Positions 71 to 50,311 of a stretch of 64,000 nt of DNA are shown piece by piece. The translations under genes were made by a program, and so were the position numbers. Every line of letters starts with the position of its first letter. Positions within the stretch are counted from its first letter, which is position 1. Origin of the DNA: Cellulomonas pakistanensis (GTDB lineage Bacteria; Actinomycetota; Actinomycetes; Actinomycetales; Cellulomonadaceae). Where the stretch lies: contig NZ_BONO01000018.1 of NCBI RefSeq assembly GCF_016862755.1, positions 1 to 64,000 of the forward strand, in the 5' to 3' direction. The notes under the pieces were generated by a model. That model worked only from the letters and a program-made list of their open reading frames with translations, made no database searches and was not told the origin of the DNA.

Positions 71-3000
71 TCAGCCCGCGTCGCCCCGTCGGGCCGCGAG
101 CCGCCGGAGGGCGACCCGCCGCACCAGGAGCAGCCCCAGGCCCCAGAGGAGCAGACCCGCGGCCCACCACGGCGCCTCGCGCCCGATGTCGCTGCCGGTG
201 ACGGCGAGCGGATCGGACGGGTCCGCCCCGGCCGGGTCGTCGCCCGGCTCCGCCGCCGCCAGCACCTCGGAGGCGAAGTACGTCACCGGGACGGTGACGG
301 TGCCACCGGGGGTGACGACCACCAGCTCCGCGGCGCCGGGCTCGCAGCCGGGGGCGAGGAACGTCAGCGACGTCCCGTCCGCGGCCACGGTGACCTCCTC
401 GGCCGGCACGACCTGCCCGCAGACGACCACCGAGGTGTCGCCCGGGACGAAGCCGCCGCCGCCCACGGTGACCGGGGTGCCGCCGCCGGCGTCGAGGTCG
501 CCGGGCTCGACGTCCGTGACGACCGGCGCCTCCGGCACCGCCGCGGCCTGCGCGTCGTACTCGTAGCCGAGCGTCAGCGCGTCCACGCCGGCCACCGCGA
601 CGACGAGCGGCACGACGCCCTCCTCGCCGGGCGGGGTGACGACGACCAGCGCGGTGTCGGACAGCACCGTCACCGACTCGGCGGCGGTGCCGCCGAACGT
701 CACCGTCGTCGGCCCGGCCGTGAACCCGCTGCCGGTGATCAGCATCGTCTGCCCGCCGGTGGTCGGGCCGACCCGCGGCGAGTAGTACAGGACCCGGAGC
801 GCGGAGCCGCCGAGCGGCGCCTGGTAGGTGAACGCCCCCGGGAGGACGCCCGTGCCCGCGGCGTTGGTCACGGCGACGTCGACCGCCCCCGCGCCGTGCG
901 CCGGCGTGGTGACGACGACCTCGGTGGCCGTCGGCGTGCCGACGATCGTCGCGGGCACCCCGCCGAACGTCACCTCCGTGACGGTGTCCAGGCCGGCGCC
1001 GGTGAGAGTCACCGTCGTGCCGCCCCCGGTCGGGCCCGCAGCCGGGGTCAGGCCCCCGACGAACGGCCCGCCGGCCGGCACGTACCCGAACCCGCCGGCG
1101 CGGACCGCGTCGGCGCCGGGCAGCTCCACCACCACGTCCGCCGTGCCGGCGGCGCCGGCCGGGGTGACGACCGTCAGGCCGCCGGGGACGACCGTCAGGC
1201 CGGTGGCCGGGACGCCGCCGATCAGGACGCGGGTGGCGGCGCCGAGCCCGAAGCCCGAGATCGTCACCGTGGTGCCGCCCGCGACCGGGCCCTGCGCCGG
1301 GGAGATCCCGGTGACGACCGGAGCGGCGTAGGTCAGCGTGCCCGCGGTCACGTCCCCCGCGGGGAAGGTGATCACGACGGGCGCGCGACCGGCGACCTCG
1401 CTCGCCGGCAGCGTGCCGGAGATGACGGTGCCGTCGGCCGAGACCACCGCGTCGGCGACGAGCACGCCGCCGACCGTGAGGCCGGTGGCGCCGCCCAGGC
1501 CCGACCCGGTCACCCGGACGGGGACCCCGCCCGCGGTCGGCGCGGCCGCCGGGCTCACCGAGGTGACCGCGGAGCCGGTGCCGTCCGCGACGTAGGTGAG
1601 GTCGCCCGCGGGCACCTCGCCGCCGCCGGGGTAGGTGATGACGACCGCCGCCGGACCCGACTCGTCGCCCGCGGGCGCCGTGAAGGTGATCGACGTGCCG
1701 TCGTCCGCCACGACGACGTCCGCCGCCCCGACGCCGCCGACCGTCACCCCGGTGGCCCCGGTGAGCCCGGTGCCCTCGATGGTGACCGTCGAGCCGCCGC
1801 CGAGCGGGACCTCCGCCGGCACCAGGCCGGCCACGTCCGCGTCGGAGCCGTCGGCCTCGTAGGTGAGCACGCCGTCGAGGGCCAGGTCCGCCCCGGGCTG
1901 CACCAGCACCAGGTCGACCGCACCCGGCGCGTGCGCCGGCGTCGTGAAGGTCACCGACGTCGCGGTCACCCCCGTCGGCGTCACGGACTCGCCGTCCACC
2001 AGCACCGCCGTGACGGCACCCAGGTCGGTGCCGGTCAGCGTCACGGACGTCCCGCCGGACTGCGGCACCCGCGCGGGGTCCACGCCGTCGACGGCCGGGA
2101 GCGCGTAGGTCACCGTGCCCGCGGGCAGCGTCGTCCCCGCCGGGAACTCCAGCTGCACCGGGGCGGCACCCGTCGCCTCGGACGGCGGGAGCGTGACGGT
2201 GACCTCGGCGCCCGAGACCACCGTGAAGTCCACGGGGGTGCCGTCGACGGTCACGCCCGAGACGTTCCCCAGGCCGGTGCCGGTCACCGTGACCGTGCCG
2301 CCCGCCGTGGGGACCGTCGCCGGGTCGAGCCCGTCGACCGTCGAGGCCGAGCCGTCGTCCTCGTAGGTGAGCTCGCCCGCGGGCACCGCACCGTCGGACG
2401 GGTAGGTGATCACGACGTCCGCCGGCCCCACCGCCGCGCCCGGGGGCGCCGTGAAGGAGATGGACGTGCCGTCCTCCGCGACCACGACGTCCGTCGCCGG
2501 CTCGCCGCCCACCGTGACCCCGGTGGCCCCGGTCAGACCGGAACCCCCGATCGTCACCGTCGCGCCACCCGCCAGCGGCACCGTGGCCGGGTCGAGCCCG
2601 TCCACCAGCGCGTCGGACCCGTCGGCCTCGTAGGTGAAGACGCCGCCCAGCGTGACGTCCGCACCCGGCTGCACCAGCACCAGGTCCACCACGCCCGGCG
2701 CGTGCGCCGGCGTCGTGAACGTGACCGTCGTGGCGGTCACCTCCGTCGGCGTGACGGAGACCCCGTCGACCAGCACCGCCGTCACGGCACCCAGGTCCGT
2801 GCCCGCCAGCGTCACCGACGTCCCGCCCGACTGCGGACCCACGGCCGGGTCCACCTCGTCGACCGCCGAGGCGACGTACTCCAGCGCCCCCGCGAGCACC
2901 GTGGCGCCCGCCGGGGAGCCGAGCACGACGGCGGCCTCGCCCGCGGCGTCCGCCGGCGGGATCGTCACGGTGATCTCGGTGCCGCTCTGCGACGCGATGT

Positions 3001-6000
3001 CGACCGGCACGCCGCCGACCGTCACCGTCGCGACCCCGTCGAGGCCCGTGCCCGTGAGGGTCAGCGTGCCGCCGCCGGCGGTCGGGCTGGTCGCCGGGTC
3101 GAGCCCGTCGACCGTGGCGCCGGTGCCGTCGTCCACGTACGTGAAGCCGTCCGCGAGGGTGGCGTCCGGGCCGGGCAGCTGCACGACCACGTCGGCCGGG
3201 CCGACGGTGCCGGCCGGCGTCGTGACGGTGAGGCTCGTCCCGTCGGGGTCGACCACCAGGCCGACGCCCGGGGCGCCGCCGACCAGCACGCCGGTGGCGC
3301 CGGCGAGGCCGGTGCCGGTGACGGTGACGGTCGTGCCGCCGCCGGTCCCGCCCTCGGCCGGGGCGACCGCGGTGACGGCCGGGGCCACGTAGGTCAGCTC
3401 GCCGGCCGGGACGGTGCCCTCCGGGAAGACCACGACCACGTCCGCCGCGCCCGGGGCGTCGGCCGGGGGCAGCACCGCGGTGACCGAGGTGCCGTCGGCC
3501 GAGGCCGTGACGTCCGTCGCCGCGACGCCGCCCACGGTGAGGCCCGTGGCGCCGGCCAGGCCGGTGCCGGTGACCGTGACGGGCACGCCGCCCGCGGTCG
3601 GGGCGGTCGCCGGCTCGAGGCCGGTGACCGTCGCGCCGGAGCCGTCCTCGAGGTAGGTGAACCCGTCGGCGAGCGTGGCGTCCGGCCCGGGCAGCGCGAC
3701 GACCACGTCCACCGGCCCCGCCGCGCCGGGCGGGGTGGTGACGGTGATCGCGGTGCCGTCCGCGGCGACGTCGACGACGTCCGCCGCGACCCCGCCGAAC
3801 GTGACCCCCGTGGCGCCGGCCAGCCCGGTGCCGGTGAGGGTGACCGTCTCGCCGCCGGCCGCGAGGCCGGTCGCCGGGTCGACCGCGTCGAGGGCGGGCG
3901 CGACGTACCCGAGCGCGCCCGCGTCGACCGTGCCGGCCGGGAACGTCAGGACGACGTCCGCGGGGCCGGCGGCGTCGGCCGCGGGGATCGTCACGGTGAC
4001 GGACGTGCCGTCCTCCGCCACGACCAGGTCGTCGGCCGGGTTCCCGCCGATCGTCACGGCCGCCACCGCGCCGAGGCCGGTGCCGGTGACGGTCAGCGTG
4101 CCGCCGCCCGCGGTGGGGCTGGTGGCCGGGTCGAGGGCGTCGACCGTGGCGCCGGTGCCGTCGTCCAGGTAGGTGAAGGCGTCCGCGAGGGCGGCGTCCG
4201 CGCCGGTCAGCTCGACCACCACGTCGACCGTGCCGGGCGCCTGGGCGGGCGTCAGGACGGTGATCCCGGTGCCGTCCGGCTCCACCGCGGTGATCGTGGC
4301 CGCCTCGCCGCCGAACGTCACGCCGCCGGCCCCGGTGAGGCCGGTGCCGGTGAGCGTCACGGTCGTGCCGCCCGCCTGCGTGCCCTCGGCCGGGTCGACC
4401 GCGGTGAGCGTCGGCGCCACGTAGGCGACCTGGCCGGCGACGACGGAGCCCGCCTGGAAGATCAGCGTGACGGTGGCCGGACCGGCGAACTCCGACGGCG
4501 GCGCCGTCACGGCGACCGACGTCCCGTCCTCGGCCACCGCCAGGCCGTCCGCGAGGACGCCCCCGACGGTGACGCCGGTGACGGCCCCGAGGCCGGTGCC
4601 GGTGACCGTGATCGTGGTGCCGCCCGTCGTGGGCAGCTCGGCCGGCGCGAGGTCGGTGACCTCGGCGTCCGAGCCGTCGTCGAGGTACAGGTAGCCGTCC
4701 GCGACCGCCGCGTCGGCGCCGGGCAGCGTGACGACCACGTCGGCCGCGCCCGGCGTGCCGGCCGGGGCCGTGACGGTGATCGTGGTGCCGTCCGGGGCGA
4801 CGTCCACGACGTCGGCCGGCTCGCCGCCGATCGTCACGCCGGTCGCCGCGCCGAGGCCGGTTCCGGTGAGGACGACCTGGTTGCCGCCCGAGCTCACGCC
4901 GAACGCGGGCTGCACGCCGGTGACCGCCGGCTCGACGAGGGTGATCTCGCCGGCCGGGACCGTGCCGCCCGGGAAGACCAGCACGACGTCCTGCGGGCCG
5001 CCGTCCTCCGTGGCCGGCACGGTGCCGGTCACGGCGCCGTCGGTGACGTCGAGGCCCGGGACGGGCACCCCACCGACGGTGAGGCCGGTCGCGCCCCCGA
5101 GGCCGGCGCCGGTGACGGTGACCGTGCCGCCGGACGTCGGCAGCTCGGCCGGCGTCACGCCGTCGACCACCGCGCCCGCGCCGTCCTCGAGGTAGGTGAA
5201 GGTCAGGCCGGCCGGGTCCGCGCCCGGCAGGGTGACCGCCACCGTGACGTCGCCCGCCCCCTGCGCGGGCGACGTCACGGTGATCTCCCCCGGGCCGACG
5301 ACGGCCAGGTCGGTGGCGGGCACGCCGCCGAAGGTCACGCCGGTCGCGGCCTCGAGGCCGGTCCCGGTGAGCGTGACCGTGGTGCCGCCGGAGGTCGGGC
5401 CCTCGGCGGGGTCCAGGGCGTCGAGCGTCGGCGCCACGTAGGTGACGACGCCGGCGTCGACGGTGCCCAGCGGGAACGCGACGACCACGTCGGCCGCGCC
5501 CGCCGCCTCGCTGGGCGGGGTGGTGAACGTGAGGCTCGTGCCGTCCGGGGCCACGACGACGTCGGCCGCCGCGGCACCGCCGACGGTCACGCCGGTGGCG
5601 CCCGTCAGGTTCGTGCCGGTGAGCGTCACGGTCGTGCCGCCCGCGGTCGGCACCTCGTCGGGCGCCAGGCCGGCGACCGTCGCGTCCGTGCCGTCCGCGA
5701 GGTAGGTGAACCCGTTCGGCAGCCACGAGTCGCCGCCGGCGTTCGTGACCGTGATCGTCACCGGGCCGGCCGCGTGCGGCGGGGTGGTGACGGTGAGCTC
5801 GGTGTCGCTGACGACGTCGAGGCCGGTGCCGGCGACGCCGTCGAACAGCACCTCGTCGACCGTCGTGAAGCCCTCGCCGGTCAGCGTGACCACCGTGCCG
5901 CCGGCGACCGGGCCCTGCGCCGGGTCGACGGCGGAGACGGTCGCGACGTCCTCGGCCAGGTAGGCGAAGCCGTCGGCCGCGACGCCGTCGACGCCCGGCA

Positions 6001-22369: not shown

Positions 22370-23485
22370 TCAGGCCGTGCGGTACTCCCCGCTGAGCCGG
22401 ACGGCGCCGCCCTGCACGCCCTTCGTGCCGGCGACCAGGTCCGGCCCGCCCTCCGCGTCCGCGGCGGTCAGGTCCCGCACCTCGCCGAGCCGCCAGGCCG
22501 TGAGCCCGAGCTCGGCCGCGTGCCGCTCGACGGCGTCCGCGCCGGCCGGGTCGACGATCGCGACCATGCCGACGCCCAGGTTGAGCGTGCGTTCGAGGTC
22601 CGTCCAGGGCACCGCGCCGGCGGCCTGCACCAGCGAGAACACCGGCGGCAGCGTCCACGACCCGCGCGGGACGTCCGCGACCAGGCCGGCCGGCAGCACG
22701 CGCGCGACGTTCGCGGCGAGCCCGCCGCCGGTGACGTGGCTGAACGCGTGCACCGCGCCGCCGGCGCGCTGGACCAGCGCGAGGCAGTCGGACGCGTAGA
22801 CGCGGGTCGGCTCGAGCAGCTCCTCGCCGAGGGTGCGCCCGAGCTCGGGCACGTGCCGGTCGAGCGACCAGCCCGCGTGCGCGACGACCCGGCGGACCAG
22901 CGAGTAGCCGTTGGAGTGCAGGCCGGACGACCCGAGCGCGACCAGCACGTCGCCGGCGCGGACCCGCTCCGGGCCCAGCAGGGCGTCGGCCTCGACCACG
23001 CCGGTCGCGGCGCCTGCGACGTCGTACTCGTCCGGGCCCAGCAGGCCGGGGTGCTCCGCGGTCTCGCCGCCCACCAGCGCGGTGCCGGCGACCGAGCAGG
23101 CCGCCGCGATGCCCCGCACCACGTCCGCGATCCGCTCCGGGACGACCCGGCCGCACGCGATGTAGTCCGTCATGAACAGCGGCCTCGCGCCCACCACGAC
23201 GATGTCGTCGACGACCATGCCGACCAGGTCGAACCCGATGGTGTCGTGCACGTCCAGGGCCTGCGCGATCGCGACCTTGGTGCCGACGCCGTCGGTGGAG
23301 GTGGCGAGCAGCGGGCGGCGGTAGCCCACCAGCGCCGACGCGTCGAACAGCCCGGCGAACCCGCCGACCCCGCCCAGCACCTGCGGCCCGTGCGTCGCGC
23401 GCACGGCGTCCTTCATCAGCTCGACGGCCTTGTCGCCGGCCTCGGTGTCGACGCCGGCGGCGGCGTAGGTGATGCCCTCGGTCAC
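22370..23485 (-). CDS. purM: Phosphoribosylformylglycinamidine cyclo-ligase
   Basis: The 371-residue enzyme closes the imidazole ring of AIR in de novo purine synthesis, using ATP. The glycine-rich start ITYAAAGVDTEAGDKAVELM, the nucleotide-binding STDGVGTK, and GGETAEHPG and SSGLHSNGYSLVR are diagnostic. The GTG start overlaps the purF stop codon (GTGA), so the two genes are translationally coupled. Confidence 0.96.
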   Translation of the reverse strand: MTEGITYAAAGVDTEAGDKAVELMKDAVRATHGPQVLGGVGGFAGLFDASALVGYRRPLLATSTDGVGTKVAIAQALDVHDTIGFDLVGMVVDDIVVVGARPLFMTDYIACGRVVPERIADVVRGIAAACSVAGTALVGGETAEHPGLLGPDEYDVAGAATGVVEADALLGPERVRAGDVLVALGSSGLHSNGYSLVRRVVAHAGWSLDRHVPELGRTLGEELLEPTRVYASDCLALVQRAGGAVHAFSHVTGGGLAANVARVLPAGLVADVPRGSWTLPPVFSLVQAAGAVPWTDLERTLNLGVGMVAIVDPAGADAVERHAAELGLTAWRLGEVRDLTAADAEGGPDLVAGTKGVQGGAVRLSGEYRTA

Positions 23486-25050
23486 GGGTGCTCCAGCGCG
23501 TTCGAGCCACCCGTGCCCGGCACGAGGGTGGCGAGCTTGTCCTCCGGTGCGCCGAGCGGCAGCTCGTTCTGCTCCAGCAGGTGCTTGCCGAGCCGGTCCT
23601 GGGACGGCAGCTCGATGGGGTACTTCCCGGAGAAGCACGCGGTGCACAGCTGCGCCGCGGGCTGCTCGGTGGCGGCGATCATGCCGTCCATGGAGATGTA
23701 GCCGAGCGAGTCCGCGCCCAGGGAGGACCCGATCTCCTCGACGGCCAGGCCGTTCGCGATCAGCTCGGCGCGGGACGCGAAGTCGATGCCGTAGAAGCAC
23801 GGCCACTTCACCGGCGGGCTGCTGATCCGCACGTGCACCTCGGCGGCGCCCGCCTCGCGGAGCATCCGGATCAGCGCGCGCTGGGTGTTGCCTCGCACGA
23901 TCGAGTCGTCGACGACGACCAGCCGCTTGCCGCGGATGACCTCGCGCAGCGGGTTGAGCTTGAGGCGGATGCCGAGCTGGCGCAGCGTCTGCGACGGCTG
24001 GATGAACGTCCGCCCGACGTACGCGTTCTTGGTCAGGCCCTGCCCGAACGGGATGCCGGACGCCTGCGCGTAGCCGACCGCCGCGGGCGTGCCGGACTCC
24101 GGCACGGGGATGACCAGGTCGGCCTCGACCGGGTGCTCCTTCGCGAGCCGGCGGCCCATCTCGACGCGCGCGGCGTGCACGGAGCGGCCGGCGATCGTCG
24201 TGTCCGGCCGGGCCAGGTACACGTACTCGAACACGCAGCCCGCGCGCTGCTGCTTCTCGGTGAACCGCTGGGTGCGCAGGCCGTCGGCGTCGATCGCGAC
24301 GAGCTCGCCCGGCTCGATCTCCCGGACGAACGACGCGCCCACGATGTCGAGCGCCGGCGTCTCCGAGGCGACGACCCAGCCGCGCTCCAGCCGGCCGAGC
24401 ACCAGCGGGCGGACGCCCTGCGGGTCACGAGCCGCGTACAGGGTGTGCTCGTCCATCCACACCAGGCTGAAGGCGCCGCGCAGCCGCGGGAGCACCTCCA
24501 TCGCCGTGGCCTCGAGCGTGTGGTCCTGGTCGCCGGCGAACAGCGCCGTCACCAGCGCGGTGTCGGTGGTGTTGCCGCGCGCGAGCTCGCCGCGCCGCTG
24601 CGCGCCGTACCGCTCCGCCACCAGGTCGACCAGCTCGGCCGTGTTGGTGAGGTTGCCGTTGTGCGCGAGGGCGACCGTGCCGGCGGCCGTCGCGCCGAGC
24701 GTCGGCTGCGCGTTCTCCCACGTGCTGCCGCCGGTCGTCGAGTAGCGCGCGTGCCCGACCGCGATGTGGCCGTGCAGGGCGTTGAGCGCGGTCTCGTCGA
24801 AGACCTGGGACACGAGCCCCATGTCCTTGTAGACCAGCAGCTGCTCGCCGTTCGACGTCGCGATGCCGGCGGACTCCTGCCCGCGGTGCTGCAGGGCGTA
24901 GAGGCCGAAGTAGGTGAGCTTCGCGACCTCCTCGCCGGGAGCCCAGACCCCGAAGACGCCGCATGCGTCCTGGGGTCCCTTCTCGTTCGGCAGGAGGTCG
25001 TGGTTGAGCAGTCCGTCTCCGCGGGGGGCCACGACTCCATGGTGACACAT
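23482..25050 (-). CDS. purF: Amidophosphoribosyltransferase
   Basis: The enzyme makes 5-phosphoribosylamine from PRPP and glutamine, the first committed step of purine synthesis. After a short propeptide (DLLPNEKGPQDA) comes the N-terminal nucleophile Cys (C30 from ATG 25050) in ACGVFGVW. The PRPP loop VVVDDSIVRGNT and LCTACFSGKYP, a ligand segment of the Bacillus-type Fe-S form, are present. The start is uncertain. ATG 25050 lacks a good ribosome site, while GTG 25032 gives VAPRGDGLLNHDLLP, close to the usual family start. purM follows with a 4-nt overlap. Confidence 0.95.
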   Translation of the reverse strand: MCHHGVVAPRGDGLLNHDLLPNEKGPQDACGVFGVWAPGEEVAKLTYFGLYALQHRGQESAGIATSNGEQLLVYKDMGLVSQVFDETALNALHGHIAVGHARYSTTGGSTWENAQPTLGATAAGTVALAHNGNLTNTAELVDLVAERYGAQRRGELARGNTTDTALVTALFAGDQDHTLEATAMEVLPRLRGAFSLVWMDEHTLYAARDPQGVRPLVLGRLERGWVVASETPALDIVGASFVREIEPGELVAIDADGLRTQRFTEKQQRAGCVFEYVYLARPDTTIAGRSVHAARVEMGRRLAKEHPVEADLVIPVPESGTPAAVGYAQASGIPFGQGLTKNAYVGRTFIQPSQTLRQLGIRLKLNPLREVIRGKRLVVVDDSIVRGNTQRALIRMLREAGAAEVHVRISSPPVKWPCFYGIDFASRAELIANGLAVEEIGSSLGADSLGYISMDGMIAATEQPAAQLCTACFSGKYPIELPSQDRLGKHLLEQNELPLGAPEDKLATLVPGTGGSNALEHP

Positions 25051-46665: not shown

Positions 46666-48045
46666 TCAGTCCTCGACGGCCGGCCCGCAGGCCGCCGCGG
46701 CGGTCGCCGCGATCGCGTCGATGCCGGTCACCGCCGGCCGCGGCCGGGTGTCCCCCGCCACGGTCCAGCACCCGTCGACCACCTCGTACGAGGCAGCCGG
46801 GCCCTCGCCGACGTAGGCGCGCAGGCCCGCGAGCAGCCGGTCGACGGTCTCGGTCGTCGTGCCGACGCCGACGGACGCGCGGATGGCGCCGCCCGTGACG
46901 CCCACCCGGGCCAGCAGCGGGTGCGCGCAGAACCGGCCGTCCCGCACGCCGATGCCGTGCTCGGCGGACAGGTACGCCGCGACCAGGCCGGAGTCGTGGT
47001 CGCCGAGCGTGAACGCCACGACGCCGACCGGGTCGGCGGAGTCGGACCACAACCGCAGGACCCGCGCCCCGGGGATCGCCGCGAGCCCGTCGACGAGCCG
47101 CTCGCGGAGCGCGCGCTCGTGCTCGTCCAGCGCCCCGGCGGGCAGCTCCGCGAGCGCGTCGCACGCCTCGGCCAGCGCGACGGCGCCGAGCACGTTCGGC
47201 GACCCGCCCTCGTGCCGCGCCGGGGCGGGCTGCCACAGCGTCCGGTCGGTGCGGACGTCGCGGACGGCGCCGCCGCCGGCCAGGTACGGCGTGCCGGCGT
47301 CGAGCCAGTCGCGGCGGCCGACCAGGGCGCCGGCGCCGAACGGCGCGTAGGTCTTGTGCCCGGAGAACGCGACGTAGTCGACGCCGCTGGCCGCGAGCGA
47401 GAACGCGCGGTGCGGCAGCAGCTGCGCGCCGTCGACCGCCACCCGAGCGCCGGCCTCCTGCGCGAGCGCGACCACGGAGGCGATCGGCAGCGCCTCGCCC
47501 GTGACGTTCGACGCGCCCGTCAGCGTGACCAGCGCGTACGGCTGCCGGGCGAGCTCCGTGCGGAGCGCCGTCAGCGTCTCCGCGACGGTGGGGGCCGACG
47601 GCAGGATCGTCGCCGTGCGCCCGGAGCCGCGGACCGAGCGCACCCAGGGCAGCAGGTTCGCGTGGTGCTCGACGTCGAGGACCAGCACGCGGCCGCCGTC
47701 GGGCACGCAACCGGCCAGCAGGTTGAGCGCGTCGGTGGTGTTCCGCGTGACGACGGCGACGTCGTCGGGTCGCGCGCCCACGAACCGGGCCACGGTCGCG
47801 CGCGACGCCTCGTACAGCGCCGTCGACACCTGGGACAGGTAGCCCGCGCCGCGGTGCACGGACGCGTACAGCGGCAGCACCTCGACGACGCGGGCGGCGA
47901 CGGACTCGAGGGCCGGCGCGGACGCGGCGTAGTCGAGGTTGGCGTACGGCACGGACCGGCCGTCGACGAGGGGGACGCGCGTGTCCCCGCCGACGACGGG
48001 CAGCAGGGCGGTGGCGGCGCACGCGGTGGTGGCGGTGACGGACAT
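46666..48045 (-). CDS. Cysteine-desulfurase-like class V aminotransferase
   Basis: The 459-residue PLP enzyme has NLDYAASAPALESV near the start, TRNTTDALNLLAG, DVEHHANLLPW, VDGAQLLPHR and the PLP-lysine motif AFSGHKTYAPFGAGAL. It is a SufS/CsdA-like fold protein. I do not see the typical active-site Cys loop with confidence, so a desulfurase, a lyase or another PLP reaction on a sulfur amino acid all remain possible. A SAM-IV-type riboswitch precedes it, tying it to sulfur or methionine metabolism. The ribosome site CGGGGG is 7 nt before the ATG and can be sequestered by GTGGGGGCCC-side pairing (48053-48074). Confidence 0.85.
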   Translation of the reverse strand: MSVTATTACAATALLPVVGGDTRVPLVDGRSVPYANLDYAASAPALESVAARVVEVLPLYASVHRGAGYLSQVSTALYEASRATVARFVGARPDDVAVVTRNTTDALNLLAGCVPDGGRVLVLDVEHHANLLPWVRSVRGSGRTATILPSAPTVAETLTALRTELARQPYALVTLTGASNVTGEALPIASVVALAQEAGARVAVDGAQLLPHRAFSLAASGVDYVAFSGHKTYAPFGAGALVGRRDWLDAGTPYLAGGGAVRDVRTDRTLWQPAPARHEGGSPNVLGAVALAEACDALAELPAGALDEHERALRERLVDGLAAIPGARVLRLWSDSADPVGVVAFTLGDHDSGLVAAYLSAEHGIGVRDGRFCAHPLLARVGVTGGAIRASVGVGTTTETVDRLLAGLRAYVGEGPAASYEVVDGCWTVAGDTRPRPAVTGIDAIAATAAAACGPAVED

Positions 48046-48052
48046 GGGACTA

Positions 48053-48074
48053 CCCCCGAGCGGATCGGTGGGGG
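48053..48074 (-). promoter_or_regulatory. Ribosome-site-sequestering stem below the SAM-IV element
   Basis: The minus-strand ribosome site GGGGG (48057-48053) is complementary to CCCCC (48074-48070), with a 12-nt loop. Pairing would hide the ribosome site of the downstream gene, a plausible expression platform for translational control. Confidence 0.4.
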
Positions 48075-48126
48075 CCCGACGGACCGGGCGACCCCGCGCT
48101 TGCCGGTCACCGGTCGGTGCACGGCC

Positions 48127-48207
48127 AGGTCGTCACCCGGGGCACCCCGCCGCGGTGGGAGGGTTGCCGGCCAGCGAGCCGGGGCTTCGCGCTGGCGCTC
48201 ATGACCT
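48127..48207 (-). ncRNA. SAM-IV riboswitch
   Basis: Read on the minus strand from 48207, the RNA has GGTCATGAGCGCCAGCGCGA, AGCCCCGGCTCGCTGG, CCGGCAACCCTCCCACCGCG and GGGGTGCCCCGGGTGACGAC, which follow the SAM-IV consensus closely, including the GGCAACCCTCC core. The ends AGGTCA and TGACGACCT close the first stem. It should bind S-adenosylmethionine and lower expression of the cysteine-desulfurase-like gene whose ATG is at 48045. A TTGACA promoter lies immediately upstream. Confidence 0.85.
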
Positions 48208-48213
48208 GCTCCG

Positions 48214-48243
48214 AGGATGGAGCGGTTCCCGCGGGGGTGTCAA
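48214..48243 (-). promoter_or_regulatory. Promoter of the SAM-IV-controlled transcript
   Basis: On the minus strand TTGACA (48243-48238) and CATCCT (48219-48214) are 18 nt apart. Initiation 7 nt downstream would begin the RNA at about 48207, exactly where the riboswitch begins. Confidence 0.6.
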
Positions 48244-48322
48244 CCGCGGTCCACGACGCGACACGGGCGCGCGCCGGCGCGGGCGGGCCGCCATCCTGGT
48301 CCCGGTGATGGCGTAGCATCGC

Positions 48323-48416
48323 CGGACCATCCAGAGCGGCCGAGAGATCTGGCTCGTCGACGCCGCAGCAACCCGCGGACCCCGGGGTCCGGCCGAGGGT
48401 GCTTCCGCCAGGTCCG
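48323..48416 (+). ncRNA. SAM-I (S-box) riboswitch
   Basis: CGGACC (48323-48328) and GGTCCG (48411-48416) close the first stem. Inside are ATCCAGAGCGGCCGAGAGAT with the kink-turn GAG/GAGA, TGGCTCGTCGACGCCGCAGC, CAGCAACC and GGTGCTTCCGCCA, the hallmark order of the S-box. It should sense S-adenosylmethionine and control DUF1737-rhodanese-metZ. The ribosome site AGGAGAGG starts 5 nt after the aptamer, which suits translational control. TAGCAT at 48314-48319 may be the -10. Confidence 0.9.
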
Positions 48417-48429
48417 ATGGAGGAGAGGC

Positions 48430-48639
48430 ATGACCGACACCGACGACCGCCTGCGCTACCGCCTGCTGACGGGGCCCGACGACCGCTCGTTCTGCGAGCG
48501 GGTCAGCGCCGCCCTGGCCGAGGGCTACGAGCTGCACGGCGGGCCCGCCGCCACCTTCGACGGGGAGCGCGTGATCGTCGCGCAGGCCGTCGTGCTGCCG
48601 GCCACCGCGGCCCCGGGCAACCCGGTGCGCCCGCTGTGA
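48430..48639 (+). CDS. DUF1737 small protein
   Basis: The 69-residue product (RLRYRLLTGPDDRSFCERVS, ALAEGYELHGGPAATFDGER, VIVAQAVV) matches DUF1737, a small soluble family of unknown function often found in short operons. It is the first gene behind the SAM-I riboswitch. AGGAGAGG precedes the ATG, and the stop codon overlaps the rhodanese GTG. Confidence 0.85.
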   Translation: MTDTDDRLRYRLLTGPDDRSFCERVSAALAEGYELHGGPAATFDGERVIVAQAVVLPATAAPGNPVRPL

Positions 48640-49061
48640 CCGCGCCGTACGCGGGCGACCTGACCCCGCACGAGGCCTGGGACCTGCTGCTGACCGACGA
48701 GCGGGCCGTCCTCGTGGACGTCCGCACGGAGGGCGAGTGGCAGACGATCGGCGTGCCGGACACCGCCGACGCCGGCGAGGGCCGCACCGCGTTCATCCAG
48801 TGGACCGACGCGTTCGGCCGCCCGAACCCGGCGTTCCTCGACGAGCTCGCCGACGCCGGCGTGACCACCGAGGACCCGCGCCCCGTGGTGTTCCTCTGCC
48901 GCTCGGGAGTGCGCTCGGTCGCCGCCGCCGTCACCGCGACCGCGGCGGGGCTCGGCCCGGCCTACAACGTCCTGACCGGCTTCGAGGGCGACGTCGGCCC
49001 GGACGGGCGCCGGGGCCACCAGGGCTGGCGCGCCGCCGGCCTGCCGTGGCGGGAGGCGTGA
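48636..49061 (+). CDS. Rhodanese-domain sulfurtransferase
   Basis: The 141-residue single-domain rhodanese has VLVDVRTEGEWQTIGVPDTA and the active-site loop VVFLCRSGVRSVAAA, with the persulfide-forming Cys. Placement between a SAM riboswitch and metZ suggests that it delivers or traps sulfane sulfur for homocysteine synthesis; this is inference. GTGA overlaps join it to both neighbours. Confidence 0.92.
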   Translation: MTAPYAGDLTPHEAWDLLLTDERAVLVDVRTEGEWQTIGVPDTADAGEGRTAFIQWTDAFGRPNPAFLDELADAGVTTEDPRPVVFLCRSGVRSVAAAVTATAAGLGPAYNVLTGFEGDVGPDGRRGHQGWRAAGLPWREA

Positions 49062-50311
49062 CCGGGGCTCCCGGACCGGCCGACTGGCGCGACGACCGGC
49101 TCCCCCGGGAGTCCCTGCGCCCCGACACGCTCGCCGTCCGCGGCGGGGCGGTGCGGACGCCGTTCCAGGAGACGTCCGAGGCCCTGTTCCTCACCCAGGG
49201 CTACGTGTACGCACGCGCCGCCGACGCCGAGGCCGCGTTCGCCGGCGAGGCCGACCGGTTCCTGTACTCCCGCTACGGCAACCCGACGGTGTCCACGTTC
49301 GAGGAGCGGCTCCGGCTGCTCGAGGGCGCCGAGGCCTGCTACGCCACGGCGTCCGGCATGTCGGCGGTGTTCACGGCGCTGGCCGCGCTGGTCCGGTCGG
49401 GCTCGCGGGTGGTCGCCGCGCGGGCGCTGTTCGGGTCGTCGGTCGTGATCTTCGACGAGATCCTCGCGAAGTGGGGCGTGCGCACCGACTACGTCGACGG
49501 GCACGTCCCGGCGCAATGGGAGGAGGCGCTGTCGACCCCGGCGGACGTGGTGTTCTTCGAGACGCCGTCCAACCCGATGCAGGACCTGGTCGACATCGCG
49601 ACGGTCAGCCGGCTCGCGCACGCCGCGGGCGCCGTCGTCGTCGTGGACAACGTGTTCGCGACGCCGGTGCTGTCCCGGCCGCTCGACCTCGGCGCGGACG
49701 TCGTCGTGTACTCGGCGACCAAGCACATCGACGGCCAGGGGCGGGTGCTCGGCGGGGCCATCCTCGGCACCGACGAGTTCGTGCACGGGCCGGTGCAGAC
49801 GCTGATCCGCAACACCGGGCCGTCGCTGTCGGCGTTCAACGCGTGGGTGCTGCTCAAGGGCCTGGAGACGCTCTCCCTGCGGGTCCGGCACCAGACCGCC
49901 TCCGCGCTCACGCTGGCGACCCGGCTCGAGCAGCACCCGGCGGTCGCCCGGGTGCGGTACCCGTACCTGCCGTCGCACCCGCAGCACGCGCTGGCGCTCG
50001 CGCAGCAGTCGGGCGGCGGCACGGTGGTGACGCTCGACCTGCGCGTGCCGGAGGGGTCGACGCCCGCGGAGGCCACGGCGCTGACGTTCGGCGTGCTGGA
50101 CGCGCTGCGGGTCATCGACATCTCGAACAACCTCGGCGACGCGAAGTCCCTCGTCACGCACCCGGCGACGACCACGCACCGCAAGCTCGGCCCGGCCGGG
50201 CGCGCGGCGGTCGGGATCGCGGAGTCGACGGTGCGGCTGTCCGTCGGGCTGGAGGACGTCGACGACCTGGCCGACGACCTGGAGCAGGCCCTGGGGACGC
50301 CGGGCGGCTGA
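49058..50311 (+). CDS. metZ: O-succinylhomoserine sulfhydrylase
   Basis: The 417-residue gamma-family PLP enzyme makes homocysteine from an activated homoserine and sulfide. Motifs are LFLTQGYVYARAADAEAAF, YSRYGNPTVSTFEERLRLLE, ETPSNPMQDLVDIATVSRLA, VVVYSATKHIDGQGRVLGG (PLP Lys) and DAKSLVTHPATTTH. These fit MetZ better than MetY or MetB. The GTG start overlaps the rhodanese stop codon. The SAM-I riboswitch upstream fits feedback by methionine. Confidence 0.94.
   Translation: MTGAPGPADWRDDRLPRESLRPDTLAVRGGAVRTPFQETSEALFLTQGYVYARAADAEAAFAGEADRFLYSRYGNPTVSTFEERLRLLEGAEACYATASGMSAVFTALAALVRSGSRVVAARALFGSSVVIFDEILAKWGVRTDYVDGHVPAQWEEALSTPADVVFFETPSNPMQDLVDIATVSRLAHAAGAVVVVDNVFATPVLSRPLDLGADVVVYSATKHIDGQGRVLGGAILGTDEFVHGPVQTLIRNTGPSLSAFNAWVLLKGLETLSLRVRHQTASALTLATRLEQHPAVARVRYPYLPSHPQHALALAQQSGGGTVVTLDLRVPEGSTPAEATALTFGVLDALRVIDISNNLGDAKSLVTHPATTTHRKLGPAGRAAVGIAESTVRLSVGLEDVDDLADDLEQALGTPGG

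Follow-up and report, generated by a model that had tools for sequence, protein, structure and literature searches.

Two different classes of SAM riboswitch diverge from a single intergenic region, one on each strand, and we consider it probable that they act as two independent SAM-OFF switches on the back-to-back promoters of a conserved sulfur-assimilation locus. In the whole window, the 64,000-nt stretch analysed here, they are the only two Rfam matches, one SAM-IV and one SAM-I (cmscan, Rfam 15). Class membership predicts that the SAM-IV element binds SAM, and the same expectation applies to the SAM-I element. In the proposed mechanism, each transcript would start within a few bases of its riboswitch, and with plentiful SAM each aptamer would fold and shut its own operon off in cis. 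The two switches would act independently, with the operons linked through their shared promoter region.

Two SAM riboswitch classes in one divergent region

The SAM-IV element (RF00634) scored 105.9 bits against a gathering threshold of 38 (E 1.8e-18), with all model positions from 1 to 116 aligned. The SAM-I element (RF00162) scored 44.6 bits against 44.4 (E 6.5e-7), a marginal match that exceeds its threshold by 0.2 bits. Both scores were reproduced when cmscan was rerun on the sub-region alone. The claim of an initial annotation that two different SAM classes diverge here between two operons is thus borne out by both thresholds, and its spacing of about 115 bp agrees with the 117 bp that we found between the 5' ends. 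The pair is not a chance occurrence, because it is conserved and the orthologous elements of relatives score up to 118 bits for SAM-IV and up to 64 bits for SAM-I. The SAM-I/IV variant RF01725 was not reported for the plus-strand element; cmscan keeps only the best match of a clan, and this was RF00162.

The SAM-IV element lacks P4 and has the P5 hairpin and 3' tail inside the aligned model, and the tail CGCGG could form PK-2 with the P3 loop CCGCG. These are the features listed for the class, namely P5, a PK-2 between the P3 loop and the 3' tail, and no P4 (PMC6890682). The initial annotation had located the element correctly but had confined it to 48207-48127; this 3' end is too short and omits the P5 hairpin and PK-2 tail at 48126-48091. 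The element resembles known SAM-IV riboswitches in being full-length, including P5 and the PK-2 tail, in being actinobacterial and in standing 5' of a sulfur-related gene. Only its surroundings in the genome set it apart, since it stands back to back with a SAM-I element.

The two aptamers had also been described as unrelated RNA folds. That description is wrong, because Rfam places both in clan CL00012 and they have the SAM-binding core in common. According to the cryo-EM study of SAM-IV (PMC6890682), its data support one ligand-binding pocket common to SAM-I, SAM-I/IV and SAM-IV, while their peripheral architectures are distinct. It is the peripheral elements of SAM-I and SAM-IV that differ (P4, kink-turn, P5 and PK-2).

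The genes on either side were identified as before, by the families listed in Table 1. The enzyme behind the SAM-IV falls under every NCBIfam cut-off and is nearest to SufS/CsdA, with 271 bits against the 475 of TIGR01979; we call it SufS-like. The Cys of its RFCAHP motif occupies what we take to be the position of the SufS active-site (catalytic) cysteine. In an alignment with the cysteine desulfurase 8kg1, this Cys falls on the Cys of the HHCAQP motif, and the PLP Lys motif SGHK falls on its counterpart in the same protein. On the other side, MetZ exceeds two equivalog cut-offs (NF005870, 717 bits against 618; TIGR01325, 589 bits against 510). Only in the window and in some relatives does a DUF1737 gene separate SAM-I from rhodanese; the majority of relatives have the rhodanese gene directly 3' of SAM-I.

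Elsewhere the same genome has two further SAM-IV elements and one further SAM-I, the latter 5' of what reads as metF. The two SAM-IV elements, one on the minus strand (3626-3739) and one on the plus strand (3969-4071), themselves form a second head-to-head pair (L238, contig C14) with a spacing of 229 bp. The genes at this pair read as a monooxygenase and FMN/flavin reductases, and its spacer contains a central operator-like motif, GTCTCGCATGCCGGAGC.

Table 1. Features of the divergent region in the window, and gene contexts of mixed SAM-IV/SAM-I pairs at other loci
Feature	Position or locus	Strand	Basis
Class-V PLP enzyme, SufS-like (cysteine-desulfurase-like), 459 aa, behind SAM-IV	46666..48045	-	PF00266, E 1.8e-80
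Probable Shine-Dalgarno GGGGG of SufS-like gene, 7 nt before ATG	48053..48057	-	sequence
SAM-IV aptamer RF00634 (P1, P2a/b, P3, PK-1, P5, PK-2 tail)	48091..48206	-	cmscan
Predicted -10 CATCCT, SAM-IV transcript	48214..48219	-	sequence and spacer alignment
Predicted -35 TTGACA, SAM-IV transcript, 18 nt from -10	48238..48243	-	sequence
Predicted -10 TAGCAT, SAM-I transcript	48314..48319	+	sequence
SAM-I (S-box) aptamer RF00162, without helix P4	48324..48423	+	cmscan
SAM-I P1, 5' strand CCAUC	48327..48331	+	sequence; near-invariant among relatives
SAM-I P2 loop CUGGC (PK-1, one side)	48349..48353	+	complementary to 48407-48411; relatives show compensatory changes
SAM-I GCCAG (PK-1, other side), where P4 would begin	48407..48411	+	
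SAM-I P1, 3' strand GAUGG	48416..48420	+	sequence; in 41/41 loci
Shine-Dalgarno GGAGG of DUF1737-rhodanese-metZ operon	48419..48423	+	sequence; its leading GG also closes the 3' strand of P1
DUF1737 small protein, first gene past SAM-I	48430..48639	+	PF08410, E 6.5e-22
Rhodanese-domain protein	48636..49061	+	PF00581
O-succinylhomoserine sulfhydrylase MetZ	49058..50311	+	NF005870, TIGR01325
SufS-like gene opposite metF(-metE)	L241, L243		
MetN-like ATPase opposite SfnG-like monooxygenase	L242, L244		
Peptide-type binding protein or monooxygenase opposite peptide-type binding protein	L233, L234		
ABC permease opposite sulfurtransferase	L235		
Binding protein opposite flavin monooxygenase	L236, L237		
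NCS1-type permease (SAM-IV, 23376-23488 of its contig) opposite MetQ-like (SAM-I)	L245		

The divergent pair is the norm in Cellulomonadaceae

We quantified how often the pair occurs in a complete census of 40 genomes, 34 of them Cellulomonadaceae from 23 genera; the sample is non-random and includes genomes already known to carry the pair. A divergent pair was found within 400 bp in 26 of the 34 Cellulomonadaceae genomes and within 5 kb in 29. The proposed search of related genomes thus recovered the same pair, and an arrangement first called unusual is the norm in this family and recurs in two others. No mixed SAM-IV/SAM-I pair in any non-divergent orientation was found in the 40 genomes. 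When 222 genomes were searched, the two classes were within 1.5 kb of each other in at least 56 Cellulomonadaceae genomes among the matches listed; all of these listed pairs are divergent, and 36 are spaced by 97-129 bp. Overall, the arrangement is old and conserved across most genera of Cellulomonadaceae.

The assignment of class to gene is fixed as well. In all 49 homologous loci (41 + 8), SAM-IV precedes the SufS-like gene and SAM-I precedes (DUF1737)-rhodanese-metZ. Among the 41 loci formed by 40 relatives and the window, metZ follows rhodanese in 40, and in the remaining one the contig ends first. In one set of relatives (L099-L105), 0.7-1.5 kb lies between the riboswitches; four of these loci nevertheless keep an operator-like motif close to SAM-I.

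Beyond the family, the short-spacing pattern appeared in 13 of 395 other genomes sampled from the order, and two other families account for five of these. A pattern scan of all GTDB species returned 119 stretches, and a core-motif regular expression recognised both aptamer cores in 38 of them. The species included many Cellulomonas, Sanguibacter, Paraoerskovia sediminicola and Quadrisphaera granulorum, and four such loci, one of them in an Actinomycetes assembly, were confirmed with Rfam. Chance accounts for the majority of the 119 stretches. The outside matches tested, in Streptomyces, Nocardioides, Microbacterium, Nesterenkonia and others, were also chance, with no Rfam match, and a 247-genome sample of the class gave two matches in other orders that were judged chance from sequence alone. 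The pattern scans thus appear to place the arrangement within the order Actinomycetales.

The nearest precedent is the tandem SAM-II/SAM-V (PMC11508383), which likewise has two different SAM classes at one locus. There, they are on one transcript and the same strand, whereas the present pair occupies both strands and serves two operons. Contiguous or tandem riboswitches (PMC12452182, PMC9481103) also group several sensors for one ligand family, but on the same transcript; PMC12452182 uses none of the words divergent, opposite strand or head-to-head. The riboswitch families are known, but a search of open-licence full texts turned up no account of SAM riboswitches arranged as a divergent pair. 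The arrangement offers an evolutionarily stable, natural comparison between two related classes of SAM aptamer in one promoter region of one cell, and makes the question of why a genome keeps several sensor classes for one ligand testable by arm swapping.

The SAM-I element belongs to a P4-less variant

In the cmscan alignment of the window's SAM-I, 3 nt replace the 19 nt of the model at the P4 region, and P2 has a kink-turn-type sequence. Since the P4 hairpin, which has served as one marker of SAM-I rather than SAM-IV (PMC7270179), is missing, we regard the plus-strand element as a P4-less SAM-I variant and not as a canonical one. It shares P1, the kink-turn-type P2, P3, PK-1, the core motifs and a ribosome-binding site in P1 with the S-box family (RF00162). 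It differs from that family in that, without P4, the PK-1 strand almost directly adjoins P1, as in SAM-IV. In its strand order P3, PK-1, P1 the element thus matches SAM-IV; in its kink-turn-type P2, and in having neither P5 nor PK-2, it matches SAM-I. Such a subtype narrows the structural gap between the two classes.

A score only just above 44.4 and a missing P4 could also mean that the SAM-I element is degenerate and non-functional, with the weak score reflecting decay. We consider this highly improbable. The P4 hairpin was absent from all 78 distinct SAM-I cores that we collected, in which P3 and P1 are 12-14 nt apart; these cores are relatives' elements, some of them from outside the pair. 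The 5-bp PK-1 is complete in 65 of the 78 and occurs in the compensatory types CUGGC:GCCAG, CCGGC:GCCGG and GUGGC:GCCAC. Moreover, P1 and the Shine-Dalgarno are conserved among relatives, and the bit scores of the orthologues argue against decay in the same way.

Output of the two arms

Direct occlusion of the ribosome site by SAM-I is a known mechanism in actinobacteria. In our data, the 3' strand of P1, GATGG, continues into the Shine-Dalgarno GATGGAGG. Of 41 loci, 40 have a Shine-Dalgarno that starts within P1, and 39 have the start codon 4-11 nt past P1. Because P1 holds the first bases of the ribosome-binding site, a SAM-stabilised P1 would block translation directly. The overlap itself is seen in the sequence, and the repressive effect of SAM is inferred from the riboswitch family. 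A ribosome-binding site within P1 has already been described for SAM-I riboswitches (PMC2258182).

For the SAM-IV arm, no intrinsic terminator-like site was found, and the start codon of the SufS-like gene is 45 nt past the aptamer, so that control of this arm is presumably translational as well. The GGGGG Shine-Dalgarno has a possible pairing partner in the CCCCC (minus-strand sense) at 48070-48074. We rejected a switch between the PK-2 tail (GCGCGGGG) and this kind of C-rich anti-Shine-Dalgarno: blocking the tail lowered the predicted Shine-Dalgarno accessibility by more than 0.1 in 0 of 37 leaders. A selected hairpin that sequesters the Shine-Dalgarno in this arm was likewise set aside as weak, with pairing only slightly above that of shuffles (median percentile 0.34).

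Promoters and a candidate operator between the riboswitches

The predicted promoter boxes are positioned regularly among the relatives. The minus-strand -35 TTGACA is 31-33 nt from the 5' end of SAM-IV in 30 of 33 short-spacing loci, and a TAnnnT-type box lies 9-10 nt before SAM-I in most of them. In the window, the -10 CATCCT of the SAM-IV transcript was not listed by the promoter consensus scan, and a plus-strand -35 was not recognisable in the spacer.

Between the promoter boxes, the spacers of relatives contain a 17-bp imperfect palindrome with the consensus GTCTCGCATGNCGGGAC (one relative's spacer reads GTCTCGCATGACGGGAC). It starts 52-54 nt from SAM-IV in most spacers and is significant in 32 of 41 (p<0.01, leave-one-out). 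It was also present, at p=0.002 each, in three SAM-IV/SAM-IV spacers outside the training set, including that of the other pair in the same genome. Measured from either predicted start, the centre of the palindrome is about 60 bp upstream, and a site near -60 would be in the usual position for an activator. Because the palindrome is equidistant from both starts, the spacers suggest that one DNA-binding regulator serves both promoters in most relatives, which would explain the rigid spacer geometry. The motif is a candidate operator, hitherto unrecognised, at which a sulfur regulator may bind. The best copy in the window is weak and degenerate (p=0.03), and we therefore claim no operator there.

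Six further matches from a scan for the operator in seven genomes were examined, five of which (L257-L259, L261, L262) were near no RNA family over its cut-off. At the sixth (L260), an operator-like motif, GTCTCGGATCGCGGGAC (~2278-2295), stands ~50 bp upstream of another SAM-I (2345-2437), outside the pair.

Why two classes at one locus

We favour two independent SAM-OFF switches, and several further readings can be weighed against the same observations. One of them adds to the two different-class switches a single activator at the operator GTCTCGCATGNCGGGAC that drives both sulfur operons, gives the operons separate SAM shut-off points, and treats the P4-less SAM-I as topologically intermediate between SAM-I and SAM-IV. 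We regard this combination as rather unlikely; if true, it would represent an undescribed regulatory module of the order Actinomycetales. Another, which takes up the different SAM thresholds suggested by the initial annotation, is that selection for unequal SAM dose-responses brought the two classes together, so that the operons are shut off at different SAM levels. In favour of this reading, the class-gene assignment was never swapped in the homologous loci, and two more families have mixed pairs at other gene pairs. Nevertheless, vertical inheritance of one ancestral locus accounts for the fixed assignment in Cellulomonadaceae, and SAM-IV/SAM-IV divergent pairs occur in the same genomes, the window's own included. 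Selection for different dose-responses is therefore doubtful to us.

Class mixing could instead have been selected because it avoids a long inverted repeat, since two same-class elements head to head would form a large palindrome that is open to recombination, deletion and sense-antisense pairing. In the census, divergent pairs within 400 bp comprised 34 mixed, 4 SAM-IV/SAM-IV and 0 SAM-I/SAM-I, where a within-genome shuffle of the labels expected 21.4 mixed (p=1e-4, for loci that are not independent). Collapsed to gene contexts, the counts became ~7 mixed, 4 SAM-IV/SAM-IV and 0 SAM-I/SAM-I, too few for the excess to be significant, and some of the mixed contexts were found through targeted search. 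Because the loci are not independent, we do not claim a preference for mixed over same-class pairs despite the nominal p value, and avoidance of inverted repeats strikes us as quite unlikely.

Mixed pairs at other genes

In the two other families, mixed pairs stand at other genes, confirmed with Rfam at five loci and found by genome search at the remainder; the gene identities in Table 1 were read from protein sequences without a family search. The mixed pairs have several different gene contexts, and therefore the arrangement recurs at several gene pairs. At L245, the SAM-IV before an NCS1-type permease, with SAM-I on the MetQ-like gene opposite, is a possible clue to the substrate of the transporter. 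At L234 (aptamer 2916-3008, minus strand), and similarly at L233, the Shine-Dalgarno occluded by SAM-I is that of a small ORF ending in ...FCLTGSSGCR-stop. This ORF precedes an ABC binding-protein gene and looks like a Cys-containing leader peptide, so these two loci may combine SAM sensing with peptide attenuation.
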